Below are positions 28,355 to 36,294 of a stretch of DNA of 37,833 bases, in pieces. Source of the stretch: a virus; the IMG/VR virus record IMGVR_UViG_3300020430_000040, positions 1 to 37,833 of that record. The stretch is one strand, 5' to 3'. The notes below the pieces were generated by a model. It made no database searches, was not told where the DNA came from, and saw only the letters and a program-made list of their open reading frames with translations. Every line of letters begins with the position of its first letter. Position 1 is the first letter of the stretch. The position numbers and the translations under genes were made by a program.

Positions 28355-30865
28355 ATGCTCAATCCATTCTTTCTAAACAACTCTAAGCAAGAGCAAAATC
28401 TCATACAAAGTCTTGTCAATGAACAATTGAAGATGTATGGGATTGAGATTTTTTACATTCCTAGAAGGTATGTAAAAAAGAATACTGTTATTAGAGAAGT
28501 AATACAGTCAGAATTTGATAATGCATATCCAATAGAAGCGTATCTTGATAGTTATGATGGATATGGTGGACAAGGAACTTTACTATCAAAGTTTGGTATT
28601 CAAGAACAGGATGATTTGACACTTATTGTTTCAAGAGATAGATATGAAAATTATATTTCTCCACTTATTAAAAATATTCCAAATATTGAGTTAGCTACCA
28701 GACCAAAAGAAGGTGATTTAATTTACTTTCCATTAGGTGATAGATTATTTGAAATAAATTATGTTGAACATGAGCAACCATTTTATCAGCTACAAAAAAA
28801 CTATGTTTACACTCTGAAGTGTCAACTTTACAGATATGAAGATGAAGTTCTTGATACTGGTGTAGAAACAATTGATGATGAGATTGAACAGATTGGATAT
28901 ATTCAAAAATTAAATTTAATAGGTGTTGCAACAACTGCAACAGCATCTGTTATTGGTATTGGAACTGGTGTTATTTCCAGTATTAGAGTAACTAACATGG
29001 GTGGTGGTTATTCATCAATACCCACAGTTGCAATTTCTTCTGCACCATCTGGTGGAACAGATGCCAAAGCAGTAGCAGTTCTTACCAATGATTTTATTGG
29101 TTGTGATGGAACAAAAGGTGGAAGCATAACTGAGGTACGACTTACAAATCCTGGTTTAGGTTATACTGTAACACCAATCATAACAATAACAGGAGGAGGT
29201 GGTGATGGTGCCACTGCTGAGGTGGTAGGTATTGAAACTATTGGTGGTATCAACCCAATCACAATTACATCAGGTGGTGGTGGATATGTCAGTGCTCCCA
29301 CTGTTGGAATATCAACCCCAGTTCATGTTGGAGCAGCAGCAACTGCAACAATTGATGTTCCTCTCCATGTTGGTGCAGGTGCAAGTGTTATTGATGCCAC
29401 TATCAGTGTTGGTGTTGCAACATATCTTTTCCCTGGTGGCACTACAGGTGGTGTTTTCTACAAGTCTGCACCTACTGTTACATTCTCAGATCCAACAGGC
29501 ACAGGAGACAACGCAAATGCCACATCAACAATTCAAGATATTGCAATAAGTGGTGGTAGGGTTAATTCTTTATCAATTACTGATGAAGGGAGGTTCTATA
29601 CATCAGTTCCCACAGTAAGTATTGCTCATCCTGGATTCAGTATTGCTTCTGCTACTATAGGGATTGCTGGATCATCCATAGACCCAAGTTCTATAGCTTT
29701 CAGCACCACAGGTAGAGCATATACAAGTGCTCCAAACGTGGCGATTACTACATCTACTGGCCAGGATGCACCTACACAAATTGCAATTGGTATTGCTACT
29801 ATTCATCCTATTACAGGTATTGTAACAGCAGTTTCTTTTGACCCTGCTGATGCTTGGGCAGTTGGAACTTCAGCAACTATTGGGGCAGGATATACTGTTG
29901 CTCCCAATATTTCTTTTGGGACACCATCACCTGTTAGAGCAACTGCAACTGCAACAATTTCAATTGGTGGTTCAGTAACAAGTCTTTCTATTGGAAATAG
30001 TGGATTTGGATATATCTCAGCACCAATAGTCACAATATCAGCACCAGCAGGTGTGACAACACAATTTACTGCAACTGGTATTGCAACTATCAGATTTAAT
30101 TCAATTTCAACTACAGGAACACTTTCTACAACATCAACATCAATATCAGGTATTACAACAGAAGGTATATTGATTGGTGATAGAGTCAGATTGAGTGTTG
30201 GTAGCACAGAACTTTATAACTTTATCCCTGAAGGAACATTTGTAAGTGGTATTGGAGCAGGAACAATAACACTTAATCAAGCATCAACAAATGTTGGTAT
30301 AGCAACTTCAGTATTTGAATTTGGTATTGATAAATGTGGTATAGTTACTGATATTAATATTACATATGGTGGAGGTGGATATTTATCACCACCAACAGTC
30401 ACTATATCTAATGATCCTATATTTAAAAATTATGTTGATATAATATCTGGTGTAACCACAGCAGTTGGTGTGGCAAATATGAATGCTGCTGGTGTTGTCA
30501 CAAGTATATCAATAACAGATAGTGGTAGTCAATATGTGCTTACACCAACTATTCAAATTTCTGAACCTGTATCCACAAGCACTGGATCATTTATATTCAA
30601 TGAAGTTGTAACTGGTGCAAGTTCTGGGACCACTGCAAGAGTTAAGTCTTATGATGCTGAAAATAATATTCTTGAGGTATCCATTGTTGATGGAACATTT
30701 ACACCAGGTGAAACAATAGTTGGTAGTGAATCTGGTGCTAGACATTCAATGAAGTCTCAAGATAAGTTTGATACTATTGATCCATTTGCTGATAATGATA
30801 GTATTGAAATTAGAGCAGATGATATCATTGACTTTACCAAAACTAATCCCTTTGGTATGCCTTAA
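28355..30865 (+). CDS. 14: Neck protein gp14 with a large internal beta-repeat insertion
   Basis: Residues 1-195 are ordinary gp14: Y-G-I-E-I-F-Y-I-P-R-R-Y-V (about 28-40), S-K-F-G-I-Q-E-Q-D-D-L-T-L-I-V-S-R (about 78-94), G-D-L-I-Y-F-P-L-G-D-R-L-F-E-I-N-Y-V-E-H-E-Q-P-F-Y-Q (split reading, about 118-142) and a T-L-K-C-Q-L-Y-R-Y-E-D-E block. The last about 30 residues (D-P-F-A-D-N-D-S-I-E-I ... D-F-T-K-T-N-P-F-G-M-P) match the C-terminus I know from gp14. Between them (about 205-740) is an insertion of about ten G-x-G-Y-x-S-x-P-T-V-x-I repeats. The total is 836 aa against 256 in T4. gp14 forms the neck with gp13. What the insert does is unknown; surface display from the neck is a guess. Confidence 0.9.
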   Translation: MLNPFFLNNSKQEQNLIQSLVNEQLKMYGIEIFYIPRRYVKKNTVIREVIQSEFDNAYPIEAYLDSYDGYGGQGTLLSKFGIQEQDDLTLIVSRDRYENYISPLIKNIPNIELATRPKEGDLIYFPLGDRLFEINYVEHEQPFYQLQKNYVYTLKCQLYRYEDEVLDTGVETIDDEIEQIGYIQKLNLIGVATTATASVIGIGTGVISSIRVTNMGGGYSSIPTVAISSAPSGGTDAKAVAVLTNDFIGCDGTKGGSITEVRLTNPGLGYTVTPIITITGGGGDGATAEVVGIETIGGINPITITSGGGGYVSAPTVGISTPVHVGAAATATIDVPLHVGAGASVIDATISVGVATYLFPGGTTGGVFYKSAPTVTFSDPTGTGDNANATSTIQDIAISGGRVNSLSITDEGRFYTSVPTVSIAHPGFSIASATIGIAGSSIDPSSIAFSTTGRAYTSAPNVAITTSTGQDAPTQIAIGIATIHPITGIVTAVSFDPADAWAVGTSATIGAGYTVAPNISFGTPSPVRATATATISIGGSVTSLSIGNSGFGYISAPIVTISAPAGVTTQFTATGIATIRFNSISTTGTLSTTSTSISGITTEGILIGDRVRLSVGSTELYNFIPEGTFVSGIGAGTITLNQASTNVGIATSVFEFGIDKCGIVTDINITYGGGGYLSPPTVTISNDPIFKNYVDIISGVTTAVGVANMNAAGVVTSISITDSGSQYVLTPTIQISEPVSTSTGSFIFNEVVTGASSGTTARVKSYDAENNILEVSIVDGTFTPGETIVGSESGARHSMKSQDKFDTIDPFADNDSIEIRADDIIDFTKTNPFGMP
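28967..30560 (+). repeat. G-x-G-Y...P-T-V-x-I protein repeat array inside gp14
   Basis: About ten divergent copies of a beta-hairpin module follow each other. Starts fall near gp14 residues 212, 262, 305, 367, 407, 448, 510, 545, 669 and 720, each with (T/S)-x-x-G-x-G/x-Y-x-x-x-P-x-(V/I)-x-(I/F)-s. Spacing is 40-60 residues, with one larger gap that holds a different beta segment. The same module occurs in the giant gp7-position protein, gp8 and the DUF4815 protein. Confidence 0.8.
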
Positions 30866-30871
30866 TAAATA
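30863..30871 (+). promoter_or_regulatory. Late-promoter-like TAATAAATA before gp15
   Basis: AATAAATA matches the late octamer TATAAATA at 7 of 8 bases. It overlaps the end of gp14 and lies 19 bases before ATG 30891, the same geometry as at 17686. It probably drives gp15-gp16. Confidence 0.5.
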
Positions 30872-30890
30872 AAGAAAAAGTATCAATAAA

Positions 30891-31898
30891 ATGTTTGAGC
30901 ATTTTTACAATGAGATCTTCAGATCAGTAATCATAGCATTTGGATCTCTCTTCAATGGGATTGAGATTCATAAGAAGGATGCAAATAATGATACTTACAG
31001 TGTCATTAAGGTCCCTCTTGCCTATGGTCCTACCCAGAAGTTCCTTGCTAGATTGGAACAGCAAGCAGATTTAAATAAACCAGTTCAAATGACTCTACCA
31101 AGAATGTCATTTGAATTTACTGATCTTCAATATGACCCAAGTAGAAAGGCAACTCAAACACAAGCATTTCACCCTGTGGTTGATAATGGCACAAAGACTA
31201 AGAAGGTCTTTATGCCTGTACCATACAATATGGGATTTGAATTATCTGTCATGACCAAGTTAAATGATGACATGCTTCAGATTACAGAGCAGATCCTACC
31301 ATATTTCCAACCATCATATACCCTCCCCATTAAACTCCTTGGAGATTTAAGGGAGGTTGTTAATGTTCCTGTTCAGATTGAATCTATTTCAATGGAGGAT
31401 GATTATGAGGGAAACTTTGATACTAGAAGAGCATTAGTATATACTTTCAGATTTGTTGCTAAGACTAATCTATATGGACCCATTAGTGATGTATCCGCTG
31501 ATGTCATCAAGAAGGTACAAGTTGGATATGTATCTGGTCAGAGAACATCCTCTGGTCAATCATATCAAAGAGATGTCACATATAGTGTTGTTCCAAGGGC
31601 AACCAAAGATTATAATGGCAATGTTTTGACCCAACTTGCTGAGGATGTTGATACCACAGAAACTGTCATCACTGTTCATGATGGATCAGCAGTTACTGTA
31701 AAACAATATATCTATGTTGGTGAGGAGGAGATGTTTGTTGACAAAATTAATGGTAACAAACTTACAGTTAAGAGGGGTCAAGATAAAACCACTGCTGCCA
31801 ATCATGTTCTGGGAGCAGATGTTCTTGGTATTGAATCATCAGATGCTAACTTCATTGATATTGGAGATAACTTTGGTTTTGATGGGAGCACCTTCTGA
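30891..31898 (+). CDS. 15: Tail sheath stabiliser/completion protein gp15
   Basis: The protein is 335 aa (T4 gp15: 272). gp15 forms the hexameric ring that caps the sheath and tube and docks to the neck. Diagnostic parts are M-F-E-H-F-Y-N-E-I-F-R-S near the start (T4: M-F-G-Y-F-Y-N-S-S-F-R), L-P-R-M-S-F-E at about residue 69, and D-D-M-L-Q-I-T-E-Q-I-L-P-Y-F-Q-P (about 126-141), which is nearly the same in T4. The extra C-terminal part, about 245-310, contains a 'Y-I-Y-V-G-E-E-E-M-F-V ... L-T-V-K-R-G-Q' module (about 272-300) that recurs in other virion proteins here. The start context CAATAAAATG lacks a Shine-Dalgarno sequence. It overlaps gp16 by one base (TGATG). Confidence 0.95.
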   Translation: MFEHFYNEIFRSVIIAFGSLFNGIEIHKKDANNDTYSVIKVPLAYGPTQKFLARLEQQADLNKPVQMTLPRMSFEFTDLQYDPSRKATQTQAFHPVVDNGTKTKKVFMPVPYNMGFELSVMTKLNDDMLQITEQILPYFQPSYTLPIKLLGDLREVVNVPVQIESISMEDDYEGNFDTRRALVYTFRFVAKTNLYGPISDVSADVIKKVQVGYVSGQRTSSGQSYQRDVTYSVVPRATKDYNGNVLTQLAEDVDTTETVITVHDGSAVTVKQYIYVGEEEMFVDKINGNKLTVKRGQDKTTAANHVLGADVLGIESSDANFIDIGDNFGFDGSTF

Positions 31899-32272
31899 TG
31901 ACTGAAGATAATATTATAGATGTGACTCCTGGCAAAGAAAAACCTACTCACCTTACAAAGGATGATGTAGAAAAAGATTATGAATACACCAGGGGCAATC
32001 TATATTCAATCATTGAAAAGGGTCAGGAAGCAATTAATGGTATCTTAGAACTCGCACAGGAAAGTGAGATGCCAAGGGCATATGAGGTTGCTGGTCAATT
32101 AATTAAAAATGTGGCTGATGCAACTGATAAACTGATGACCCTACAACAAAAATTGAAGGATGTAGAGGAAGAAAAAGTAAGCAAGGGTCCAACTACAGTC
32201 AACAATGCATTATTTGTTGGTTCTACAGCAGAATTGCAGAAGTTATTGAAGAATAATAATCCTGATAAATAA
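31898..32272 (+). CDS. 16: Small terminase subunit gp16
   Basis: The 124-aa protein matches the T4 gp16 core: D-V-E-K-D-Y-E-Y-T-R-G-N-L-Y-S-I-I-E-K-G-Q-E-A (split reading, about residues 23-45), then E-L-A-Q-E-S-E-M-P-R-A-Y-E-V-A-G-Q-L-I-K-N-V (about 51-72) and a coiled-coil helix. TerS forms a ring that recognises DNA and stimulates gp17 during headful packaging. It is shorter than T4 gp16 (164 aa). A C-terminal V-G-S-T-A-E-L-Q-K-L-L-K patch may contact the large subunit. The start overlaps the gp15 stop. The large subunit gp17 does not follow in this window. The stop codon is inside the stem of a hairpin (32268-32304). Confidence 0.95.
   Translation: MTEDNIIDVTPGKEKPTHLTKDDVEKDYEYTRGNLYSIIEKGQEAINGILELAQESEMPRAYEVAGQLIKNVADATDKLMTLQQKLKDVEEEKVSKGPTTVNNALFVGSTAELQKLLKNNNPDK
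32264..32271 (+). promoter_or_regulatory. Late-promoter-like GATAAATA before the fibre gene
   Basis: GATAAATA (7 of 8 match to TATAAATA) overlaps the last codons of gp16 and lies 42 bases upstream of ATG 32314. The same TGATAAATA occurs at 36324-36332 upstream of the next gene. The distance is longer than at the other late promoters, so confidence is limited. Confidence 0.4.
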
Positions 32273-32304
32273 TACATCAGGGAGAGAAATCCCAAAGTAT
32301 TATT
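32268..32304 (+). other. Nested hairpin across the gp16 stop codon
   Basis: AATAATAC (32268-32275) pairs perfectly with GTATTATT (32297-32304). Inside, GGGA (32280-32283) pairs with TCCC (32290-32293). There is no T-run after it, so it is not a standard terminator. It could protect a 3' end, act as a processing site, or influence expression of the fibre gene that starts ten bases later. Confidence 0.55.
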
Positions 32305-32313
32305 ACTAATAAA

Positions 32314-35300
32314 ATGTCTAATAAAGAAGAATTGCTGTCAATAAATGATTATCTAGAGGAGAGCAATCTTCCCTCTTATAAGGACTTCATTGAAGAGAAA
32401 GAAGAATTACCATCAGTAGAAGATTATAAAACTCACCCTCTAGAAGAGGATCAAACCATTGAAGATGCAAATGGAAACACATTTGCAGAGGTTATTGATG
32501 TTGTAAAAGCACCAGAGTGGCAAGAACTTGTCAAATTAGTCAATGATGTAAGAAGAGAAATACCTGAAATACCTGAGATCAAATCATATGATGAAGAAAT
32601 TGGTCAGATAAGTGAAAAAATTGCTCAAATTCAAGAAAATTTTTCAATTTATGACCTCAAAAGTGATAAAATCTTTGATTTAAAATCAAAAAATGAAGAA
32701 TTTGAAGTAAAATTAACTGAAATTGAACAAAAAATCCCAGAAGTTCCTGAAGTTAGGTACTATGAAGGTGATATTGAACTCATTTATAGTAAAATTTCAA
32801 GAATTAAAGAAGAAATTGACTCTCTTCCTGAAGTAAAATACTATGAAAATGACCTTGACACCCTAAAATCAAGGATTGAAGAGGTAAATGAAAATATTCC
32901 AACCTTTCCAAAGTGGGTTAATGAGATAAATGAGGTCCCAGATTTCTCTTGGATTGGAAAAACCTTTGGAGTTATTGATGATGACTTCAAAAAGGTTCAA
33001 GGACACCTTGATTTAATCAGAGATACCATAGAATCAAGGGTTTCTGAGTTAAATGAGACTATTGAGACCAAAGATTTTGAACAAAGAGTAGATTCAAAGA
33101 CTCTTTCTGAGAATTTAGAGTCCACAAATACCAAATTAAGTGAAACTAAGGACAAAATCTACAAAGAACTGAGGGAAATGACCCTTAGGGTTTATGATCA
33201 TCATAAAGAATTTAAAGATGATGATAGAAAACTAAAAAAAGCAATATTGGGAGAGCAAAATAAACTCAAACAGGCTTTAAATGAACAAATTAAGTCTATT
33301 GAGAAGGAGAGTATTAAGACAGATGAGAAAATCATCTCTTTTTATGTTAATTTAAGAGAGGAAGTAGAGCAAAAGTTAAACTCTCTTCCAGAAGTCAAAT
33401 ATTATGACAATGACATAAAAAAACTGCAAGTTGATGTCAAAAATGTAAAGACCAATATCAAAGGTCTGATCACTGAACTCTATAAAATTGCAACTGTAAT
33501 TAAAAAGCAGCAAAAAAATCTTACTGAGGGTCTGCTTAATGAACCTCCTAATGAGAAAGAAACTGCTGGTGGACAAACTGATCCATTAACACCAATGGAT
33601 CAAAAATTTGCTACCCTTGAGGATTTATCAAACCACTACAGGTTGTTTATAAACAGGATTCAGACTCAACTTTCCACAATGGGTGGTGGTGGAGCAGGAT
33701 TTATCAAGGATCTTGATGATGTAACCTTTGATCAAACAACAGGGACAAATGAACTTCTAATTTATGATGGTGCCAAGTGGGTAGGTATTGCTAGCACAGC
33801 ATTATCATCATCATCATCTGAAACTCAGGGTTTAAATAATGTTCTTTCTATTGGTAACACATCCAGCACAGGGATGTCTGTTGGTGTTGTCACAGCAACA
33901 CAATTCTTTGGTGATGGTTCTGGTCTAACTGGGGTTGCAAACACCAACTTCATTGTTGGAACCTCAATCACGATGACCACTGGTAACTTTACTGGTAACG
34001 TGACTGTTGGTGGGACAATCACATATGAGGATGTAACCAATGTAGATTCAATTGGTATTATCACTGGTAGGGATAACATCAATATTGTAACTGATGGTAA
34101 GAAGTTACAGATTGGTGCTGGTTCTGATTTACAACTATACCATGATAGTAATCAATCATTCATTGACAACAATACAGGTCCACTCTTCATCAGGAACAAT
34201 GTAGATGATGATGATGGTGGCAACATCATCATTCAAGCAAAGTCTGGTAAGTCATCTGCTGTATTTCAGGATGATGAGGGTGTAAGGCTTTATTACAATG
34301 ATGTTGAAAAGTTTGAGACTCTGAGTGGTGGTGTCAATGTCACAGGTAACATTGAAACTGATACCCTCAATGTTACTGGTGTGGGCACAATAACTGATAA
34401 TCTTTCAATCAAGAGTCAGGATAGTTCACCTGGCAGGATTGACCTATATTGTGAGTCAAGTAATGCACATTATGCCAGGATTCAGGCACCAGCACATTCT
34501 GCCTTCTCTGGCAATATTACCCTCACCCTGCCATCAGATTCTGGCACTCTGCTTACTAATGTTGTGGAAGACACTACACCACAACTTGGTGGTAATTTGG
34601 ATATTAATGGTAAGTATATCACAGGCACTGGTGGTGCTGCTATTGTAGGTGTTGTAACTGCTACAACTTTTAATGGTAATTTAGCAACCACTAATTTAAC
34701 TGGAACCATTACTAATTCACAATTGGATGGTTCTATTGCTAATGATAAGTTAGCAAACTCCAGTGTTTCTTATGGTGGAGTAAGTTTAGCACTAGGTGCT
34801 TCAGATGCAACACCAGCATTTGATCTTTCTGATGCTACTAACTATCCCACCTCAAGTCTCTCTGGAACAATCACCAATGCACAGTTAGCAGGATCTATTG
34901 CTGATGGTAAGTTGGCAAGCACATTCCTCAAAAATGTAGTTGAAGATACCACTCCAGAACTTGGAGGTAATCTTGGCCTAAACAGCAAGGACATTACTGG
35001 TACAGGTGATATTAATATAACTGGTACTGTAACCTCAGACGGAGTTTTCCTAGGTGATGACGAGAAGATACATCTAGGTGACGGGGGCGATCTTAAGATC
35101 TGGCATAATGGGTTTAATAGCATCATCAACGACGAAGGATCTGGTGACCTATACTTAGGTGGCGATACTGGCGTTTTTATTACTAATGCGGCGCTTAGTG
35201 AGTTTAAGGGAAAGTTTATCACAAACGGAGCAGTAGAACTCTATTACGACAACGTACTGCGCCTCACAACAACTAACAGTGGTGTAAGCATCACTGATAA

Positions 35301-36294
35301 TCTGAATGTTGCTGGTGTTTCTACATTTCAAGGTCATATTCATATTGGAGATGATGATGAGCTAAGATTTGGTGCCAATAATGACTTTAAAATTGTTCAT
35401 GATCCAAATGATTGTCGTTTTGAGAATTCAAATGGTGACATTAAGTTTAAGAATACTGGTAGTTATTTCTTCTTTGATGAGGATGGTGGTGAAACTCTTG
35501 CATCCTTTATTAATGATGGTGCTATAAATCTCTTTCATAATGGATCCAAAAAATTTGAAACCACTTCAACTGGTATCAGTGTAGCAGGTGACATTAATAT
35601 AACAGATAAGATTATTCATACAGGTGACACTGATACTGCCATTAGATTCCCTGCTGCTAATACATTCACTGTAGAAACTGGCGGTAGTGAAAGATTCCGC
35701 ATAAAAGATGATGGACAATTACTTCATTATTTCTATGATAGATGGTTTGCAAGTGATGGTTCAACCTCTATAGGATTCATTGGTCCTGCAGATCAAAATG
35801 TTACTGGTGAAAGCAACTCTAACTTTGCTGTATCATCAGTAAATTCACTGGTATTCAGTACAGGTGGTGGGACTAAAGCACTCACACTTGATGCAAGTCA
35901 AAATGTCACATTTGCTGGTGATGCCTTATTTGCTGATAATGATCAGATTATCATGGGTGATGGTCCTGATCTAAAAATGTATCATGATGGTAGTAATAGT
36001 TTTGTAGAGGATACTGGAACAGGTGCTCTAATCATGAAGGGGAGCACCATTCGTTTCAGATCTACCACTAATGAAAATATGGTTCGTGCTGTTCAAAATG
36101 GAACAGTAGAACTCTATCATGATTCCACCAAGAAATTAGAGACAACAAGTGATGGTGCTGAGGTTTCAGGAAGTATTACTGCATCTGATGGTTTTACAAG
36201 TGGCACTGGGGGTGCTGTTAAAATAAGTGTATCAGGATCTACATTAACATTTACTGTTGATGGTGTTGGATCTGCATCACTCACACTTTCATGA
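32314..36294 (+). CDS. Large fibre-like structural protein with coiled-coil stalk and D-L-x-x-Y-H-D repeats (1326 aa)
   Basis: Residues 1-420 are acidic and mostly helical/coiled coil, punctuated by four copies of a P-E-V-K-Y-Y-x-x-D-I motif (near 85, 142, 171 and 358). A glycine run at about 456 leads to I-K-D-L-D-D-V-T-F-D. Then come fibre modules known to me from marine phage tail fibres: F-F-G-D-G-S-G-L-T-G (about 529-538), D-L-Q-L-Y-H-D-S-N-Q-S (about 605) with relatives near 924, 1023 and 1214, and two V-E-D-T-T-P-x-L-G-G-N-L blocks (about 751 and 875). The C-terminus is a short Ser/Thr/Gly beta segment with no recognised chaperone domain. A trimeric fibre or whisker is likely; the receptor is unknown. 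Its place between gp16 and the missing gp17 is unusual. Codon use changes abruptly at 35040-35261. No Shine-Dalgarno; start context CTAATAAAATG. Confidence 0.85.
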   Translation: MSNKEELLSINDYLEESNLPSYKDFIEEKEELPSVEDYKTHPLEEDQTIEDANGNTFAEVIDVVKAPEWQELVKLVNDVRREIPEIPEIKSYDEEIGQISEKIAQIQENFSIYDLKSDKIFDLKSKNEEFEVKLTEIEQKIPEVPEVRYYEGDIELIYSKISRIKEEIDSLPEVKYYENDLDTLKSRIEEVNENIPTFPKWVNEINEVPDFSWIGKTFGVIDDDFKKVQGHLDLIRDTIESRVSELNETIETKDFEQRVDSKTLSENLESTNTKLSETKDKIYKELREMTLRVYDHHKEFKDDDRKLKKAILGEQNKLKQALNEQIKSIEKESIKTDEKIISFYVNLREEVEQKLNSLPEVKYYDNDIKKLQVDVKNVKTNIKGLITELYKIATVIKKQQKNLTEGLLNEPPNEKETAGGQTDPLTPMDQKFATLEDLSNHYRLFINRIQTQLSTMGGGGAGFIKDLDDVTFDQTTGTNELLIYDGAKWVGIASTALSSSSSETQGLNNVLSIGNTSSTGMSVGVVTATQFFGDGSGLTGVANTNFIVGTSITMTTGNFTGNVTVGGTITYEDVTNVDSIGIITGRDNINIVTDGKKLQIGAGSDLQLYHDSNQSFIDNNTGPLFIRNNVDDDDGGNIIIQAKSGKSSAVFQDDEGVRLYYNDVEKFETLSGGVNVTGNIETDTLNVTGVGTITDNLSIKSQDSSPGRIDLYCESSNAHYARIQAPAHSAFSGNITLTLPSDSGTLLTNVVEDTTPQLGGNLDINGKYITGTGGAAIVGVVTATTFNGNLATTNLTGTITNSQLDGSIANDKLANSSVSYGGVSLALGASDATPAFDLSDATNYPTSSLSGTITNAQLAGSIADGKLASTFLKNVVEDTTPELGGNLGLNSKDITGTGDINITGTVTSDGVFLGDDEKIHLGDGGDLKIWHNGFNSIINDEGSGDLYLGGDTGVFITNAALSEFKGKFITNGAVELYYDNVLRLTTTNSGVSITDNLNVAGVSTFQGHIHIGDDDELRFGANNDFKIVHDPNDCRFENSNGDIKFKNTGSYFFFDEDGGETLASFINDGAINLFHNGSKKFETTSTGISVAGDINITDKIIHTGDTDTAIRFPAANTFTVETGGSERFRIKDDGQLLHYFYDRWFASDGSTSIGFIGPADQNVTGESNSNFAVSSVNSLVFSTGGGTKALTLDASQNVTFAGDALFADNDQIIMGDGPDLKMYHDGSNSFVEDTGTGALIMKGSTIRFRSTTNENMVRAVQNGTVELYHDSTKKLETTSDGAEVSGSITASDGFTSGTGGAVKISVSGSTLTFTVDGVGSASLTLS
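35040..35261 (+). other. CpG-rich, atypical-codon patch inside the fibre gene
   Basis: Counted by eye, this 222-base stretch holds 14 CpG, whereas the preceding 2.7 kb of the same gene appears to hold about two. Codons shift to GAC, AAC, GGC, GCG and CGC. The frame is intact and the protein reads as a normal fibre repeat (K-I-H-L-G-D-G-G-D-L-K-I-W-H-N-G). The edges are sharp. This is what a short recombination tract from a different phage lineage would look like. Confidence 0.75.

Follow-up and report, generated by a model that had tools for sequence, protein, structure and literature searches.

A CpG-rich tract in the tail-fibre gene of a CpG-depleted marine T4-like phage is probably a module imported by recombination

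A short CpG-rich tract within the tail-fibre gene of an otherwise strongly CpG-depleted marine virus raises the question of whether the tract is native to this lineage or was acquired from another phage. The window examined here is the whole 37,833-bp sequence of IMG/VR record IMGVR_UViG_3300020430_000040. It belongs to a T4-like marine myovirus (Kyanoviridae-like), in which gp25, gp6, gp7, gp8, gp13 and gp14 are found in conserved order, as in P-TIM68 and S-B05; gp6 reaches 62% to Synechococcus phages, and Gp8 has a Pfam match. The fibre gene is placed downstream of the gp13/gp14/gp15/terS-like genes, and its features are listed in Table 1. On the basis of current results, the tract appears to be one fibre module that was imported by recombination from a phage without CpG depletion (probability of about 0.85).

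Table 1. Features of the tail-fibre gene and of the CpG-rich tract (window coordinates)
Feature	Position	Strand	Evidence
Tail-fibre gene, 1326 aa	32314..36294	+	ORF; PHROG tail-fibre/virion-structural matches; gene order as in P-TIM68
Fibre N-terminal part, lineage-inherited	32314..33801	+	nt identity 89.4% to CpG-poor sister G001/L254, 83% to G004, 75% to G006
Second part common to sister phage	33991..34635	+	85.3% to G001/L254
Upstream repeat module, 0 CpG, common to CpG-normal phages	34647..35033	+	L291 81.9%, L292 82.2%, L275 78.1%
Left breakpoint interval	35034..35043	+	Upstream matches end at 35033, tract matches begin at 35044, first CpG at 35040, composition segment from 35034
CpG-rich tract, inferred import; encodes the larger part of a GDLKIWHNG fibre module	35040..35261	+	14 CpG; L003 and Syn30 matches
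Right breakpoint interval	35254..35304	+	L003/Syn30 similarity ends at 35253, last CpG at 35260, downstream matches from 35295-35305
Downstream module, CpG-poor	35295..35593	+	L355 88.1%, L354 87.2%, L356 84.7%
Conserved linker NVAGVSTFQGH, candidate short recombination homology	35305..35337	+	Alignments of L354, L355 and L003

The window contains 130 CpG dinucleotides (o/e 0.10; TpG 1.39 and CpA 1.43). Fourteen of them fall within the 222 bases of the tract (35040, 35061, 35082, 35088, 35130, 35133, 35163, 35172, 35189, 35192, 35226, 35247, 35253 and 35260), compared with 116 across the remaining 37.6 kb and just two, at 33971 and 33999, in the 2.7 kb upstream of it; thus, the counts given in the preliminary description of this DNA (14 against about two) were exact. 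When 130 CpG were placed randomly in 5000 trials, the densest 222-bp window held no more than 8, and the next densest one actually present holds 6. The majority of the tract CpG (11 of 14) are located at silent codon 3-1 junctions, two are in GCG alanine codons and one is in the arginine codon CGC. Silent NNC codons followed by G thus number 11 per 75 codons in the tract, whereas the highest count elsewhere in the listed genes was 3 per 75-codon window.

This excess was specific to CpG. NNY codons before G ended in C at 11 of 21 sites in the tract versus 39 of 2666 elsewhere (1.5%; P = 9e-15), whereas before A, C or T the corresponding fractions were similar (11/27, or 41%, versus 33%; P = 0.42). 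Under the phage's own non-CpG C rate (0.334), 11 of 21 would be unremarkable (P = 0.057). CpG avoidance is therefore missing from the tract, whereas ordinary codon preference is unchanged. Since C-ending codons were unchanged outside the CpG context, the tract is not simply C-rich at codon ends; the general shift of codon endings to C or G that had been claimed did not hold, being restricted to NNY codons before G. The C-ending codon usage of highly expressed genes was also considered as a cause and could be ruled out, as C was not raised outside CpG. Further comparison of 20 candidates by codon tables that take the following base into account revealed that the window's own genome was the worst model for the tract (lnL -120.2), with -94.3 for Syn30 and -82 to -89 for CpG-unbiased phage contigs. 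The composition of the tract is thus foreign to the recipient genome. The top-scoring composition segment was 35034-35277 when both site types were used, and 35034-35253 for NNY codons before G alone.

The fibre gene of the window is a classical modular mosaic. Its N-terminal 390-840 residues are conserved among relatives within the clade, and the C-terminus is unrelated in G001, G004 and G006, which have longer fibre genes; homology to the G001 fibre stops near aa 774-843. The closest relatives change from the segment upstream of the tract to the tract itself, and again to the segment downstream, and the breakpoints coincide with the borders in composition. The best nucleotide relatives of the tract were L003 (75.7%, 35044-35253) and Synechococcus phage Syn30 (75.2%, 35089-35253), and the latter was also the closest among isolates (75% nt, 74% aa). 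Among isolates, the N-terminal part was closest to SynMITS9220M01 (48% aa), and 35530-36108 matched S-TIM5 piecewise. The linker NVAGVSTFQGH adjoins unrelated modules in other phages. The same best matches for flanks and tract, which had been named as evidence against an exchange, were looked for, and the best matches were found to differ. Together with the sharp junctions and the last rank of the own codon model, this bears out the recombination that was proposed at first.

Several upstream-module matches end exactly at 35033; because upstream matches stop there and tract matches begin at 35044, the left junction lies within ~10 bp. Repetitive modules are a known source of misassembly in metagenomes, and both the metagenomic source and the repeats of this gene would suit an assembly chimera of two phages joined within a repeated fibre module. 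Such a chimera is nevertheless unlikely. Both junctions recur in a 6930-bp contig under another metagenome number (IMGVR_UViG_3300030119_000345; perhaps not an independent sample), which spans 28735-35664 with one mismatch (at 32937). In addition, the linker shared at the right junction measures only ~30 bp, and the reading frame is kept across the tract, as had been stated before (translation DGVFLGDDEKIHLGDGGDLKIWHNGFNSIINDEG...AVELYYDNVLR).

The intact frame and the mostly silent nature of the CpG would also be compatible with a native tract, in which CpG was kept by local selection (for example, an overlapping signal, RNA structure or optimal C-ending codons). We consider this very unlikely, as C-ending codons do not rise outside the CpG context, related repeats of the same gene are CpG-poor and the best matches are unlike those of the flanks. 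Other fibre segments with the same PHROG repeat families (aa 589-691, 1012-1095 and 1194-1298) contained arginine CpG or none, and no silent CpG; therefore, neither fold nor expression appears to demand CpG. Even less probable is a single import of all modules around the tract from a mosaic donor, after which CpG loss happened to spare the tract alone. Everything past about aa 774-843 is indeed unlike the sister G001, but silent NNC codons before G occupy 0/61 and 1/100 sites in the flanks, which makes a chance survival of 11/21 implausible.

The flanking modules also bear on the relative age of the import. Where their nearest relatives have CpG (3-6 per segment), the window mostly has TG, CA or CT, and the tract shows the opposite; the downstream module, for example, has 1 CpG in the window versus 3-5 in its L355, L354 and L356 matches. 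The flanks were either imported earlier and lost their CpG, or drawn from a CpG-poor pool. The simplest reading, we infer, is that the tract is the most recent import among the fibre modules. The earlier word 'recent' thus applies in a relative sense only, in that the tract CpG is uneroded, whereas almost no CpG occurs in flanking modules whose relatives are CpG-normal; the import cannot be given an absolute date. Significant CpG islands of relatives were confined to discrete genes, which we also counted as support for an import of the tract.

The most probable course of events is as follows. The recipient is a marine T4-like (Kyanoviridae-like) phage of a strongly CpG-depleted lineage, with a tail fibre built of exchangeable modules of ~75-110 residues each. 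One module (35034-35304 at most, 35040-35261 at least) would have been acquired by recombination with a CpG-tolerant phage that infected the same cell or was within reach in some other way. Homology for the exchange was probably offered by short stretches that modules have in common (for example, the GVSTFQG linker), and the exchange may have proceeded via the phage's T4-type recombination system. As the frame was kept, the fibre should still work. The CpG of the tract has not yet been lost, in contrast to neighbouring modules.

The donor itself was not found among 497 relatives (IMG/VR, GTDB genomes and a phage collection), the best of which reached 81% aa and 76% nt; a protein search of the GTDB genomes gave just two distant matches and no donor. 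The module is homologous to the GDLxIYHDG-type repeats of marine phage fibres (Syn30 CPRG_00203, S-P4, S-E7, S-CAM9 and P-SCSP1u gp28), which differ in CpG: the homologous modules of Syn30 and L003 have 3 each versus 14 in the tract. The closer and CpG-richer source that had been expected was thus not observed, and the relatives with the highest aa identity are not the donor. The median over 197 distinct homologous modules was 4.2 CpG per 222 bp, and five (tract included) had ~14 or more. Since the nearest relatives are CpG-poor and so few modules are as dense, the import calls for an unusual donor, probably some phage that does not avoid CpG and is missing from the collections. Because these collections are incomplete, the missing donor limits the proof but does not exclude an import. 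No relative carrying the pre-exchange fibre is known.

The tract encodes most of a GDLKIWHNG fibre module, in line with the D-L-x-I-W-H-N-G pattern described before. The module is an internal repeat, one among several in the fibre, and belongs to a marine phage fibre repeat family (PHROG matches; 42-sequence alignment). With 343 residues between the tract and the C-terminus, its designation as a receptor-region module could not be supported. AlphaFold predicted a beta-rich repeat with high confidence (mean pLDDT 92) whose fold matches viral fibre models, and a PDB fold search with this model gave no significant match to a solved fold. By profile, the module matched P-SCSP1u gp28 (PDB 8i4m chain e, E=1.6e-28). 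The fibre N-terminus was reported as clearly resolved in the P-SCSP1u structure (PMC10575957), and therefore the matched part of gp28 was perhaps not modelled.

Fibre mosaicism as a kind of event is already well known. In T-even phages, adhesin swapping via conserved motifs of the distal fibres was reportedly described by Tetart et al. in 1998. Tail-fibre mosaicism of T4-related phages has been reviewed (PMC2993671). The gene studied here resembles these systems in module exchange within a fibre gene, in junctions at short conserved motifs and in a conserved N-terminus with a variable distal part; it differs in that a single internal module of ~75 residues is involved, which was revealed by CpG against a CpG-depleted genome. 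Exchange of fibres between phages is usually hard to date or delimit, whereas a CpG-depleted genome marks an imported piece at near base-pair resolution. Prochlorococcus phage P-TIM68 (Haifavirus) closely resembles the window in gene order and is likewise extremely depleted in CpG (chunks 0.06-0.14), but it lies in a separate clade on the gp6 tree, and its fibre-like gene at the same position has other modular content and no CpG cluster.

The CpG-depleted background is more striking than the fibre swap. Depletion was shared across the clade of the window (o/e about 0.03-0.25). Extreme depletion (mostly o/e 0.03-0.20), with TpG/CpA raised, was observed in two or more clades of marine T4-like phages that are separate on the gp6 tree (window, L254-L266 and L362-L364), including the isolate P-TIM68 and its relatives. 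In the window, YCGR did not occur in the 37.6 kb beyond 35038-35262 (0/982 NYY codons before GR), and its o/e was 0.01-0.02 in G001 and P-TIM68, compared with 0.1-0.2 for other CpG. RGCY was rare as well (0.15-0.25), likewise in the CpG-normal cyanophages Syn30 (0.14) and S-SM2 (0.18). The scarcity of YCGR and RGCY suggests a partial resemblance to restriction-site avoidance. The tract has no YCGR among its 14 CpG, which is a weak sign of a filter, as 13% of unconstrained recodings of the same protein also lack YCGR.

With regard to candidate causes, phage-encoded C5 methylation was rejected, as no PF00145 was detected in the complete P-TIM68 or in the partial G001, G002, G004 and G006. A MjaI-like restriction enzyme of the S-SM2 type was also rejected as a common cause, being not found in P-TIM68 or G001. 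Nothing relevant on CpG depletion in cyanophages was found in the open-licence literature. It is possible, but rather doubtful at present, that several marine T4-like lineages are under a CpG-excluding pressure on the phage genome, under which YCGR is essentially forbidden, so that imported modules arrive with their CpG and lose it afterwards, and the tract is a fresh import. If such a pressure exists, the CpG content of a segment would act as a natural clock, and as a barcode, for recent exchange of genes. If the purge is steady, CpG content could allow imports in many marine phages to be ranked by age, and the same mark could point to the force behind the depletion.

Some additional observations were made in related phages. 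A C5-cytosine methylase gene (PF00145) is present at 107313-108356 of S-B05 (W01), a cyanophage in which CpG depletion is not extreme (o/e 0.48). P-TIM68 has methylases of the N4/N6 type. Its region L362:46248-48278 contains one such methylase gene, followed by a gene with a weak PvuII-endonuclease-like match (E=0.002) and another with a weak EcoRI-methylase-like match (E=0.0014), both below the curated cut-offs; this region may possibly be a phage restriction-modification cassette. Significant CpG islands were detected in G001 (L259:3251-3616, 11 CpG in 222 bp) and P-TIM68 (L364:26231-26605, 9 in 222 bp). In each case a related gene holds or adjoins the island, and its copy in P-TIM68 matches PF24653, a cyanophage outer-membrane-like protein. 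The densest island of P-TIM68 (L364:46990-47211, 13 CpG in 222 bp) lies close to a small hypothetical gene that precedes thymidylate synthase.
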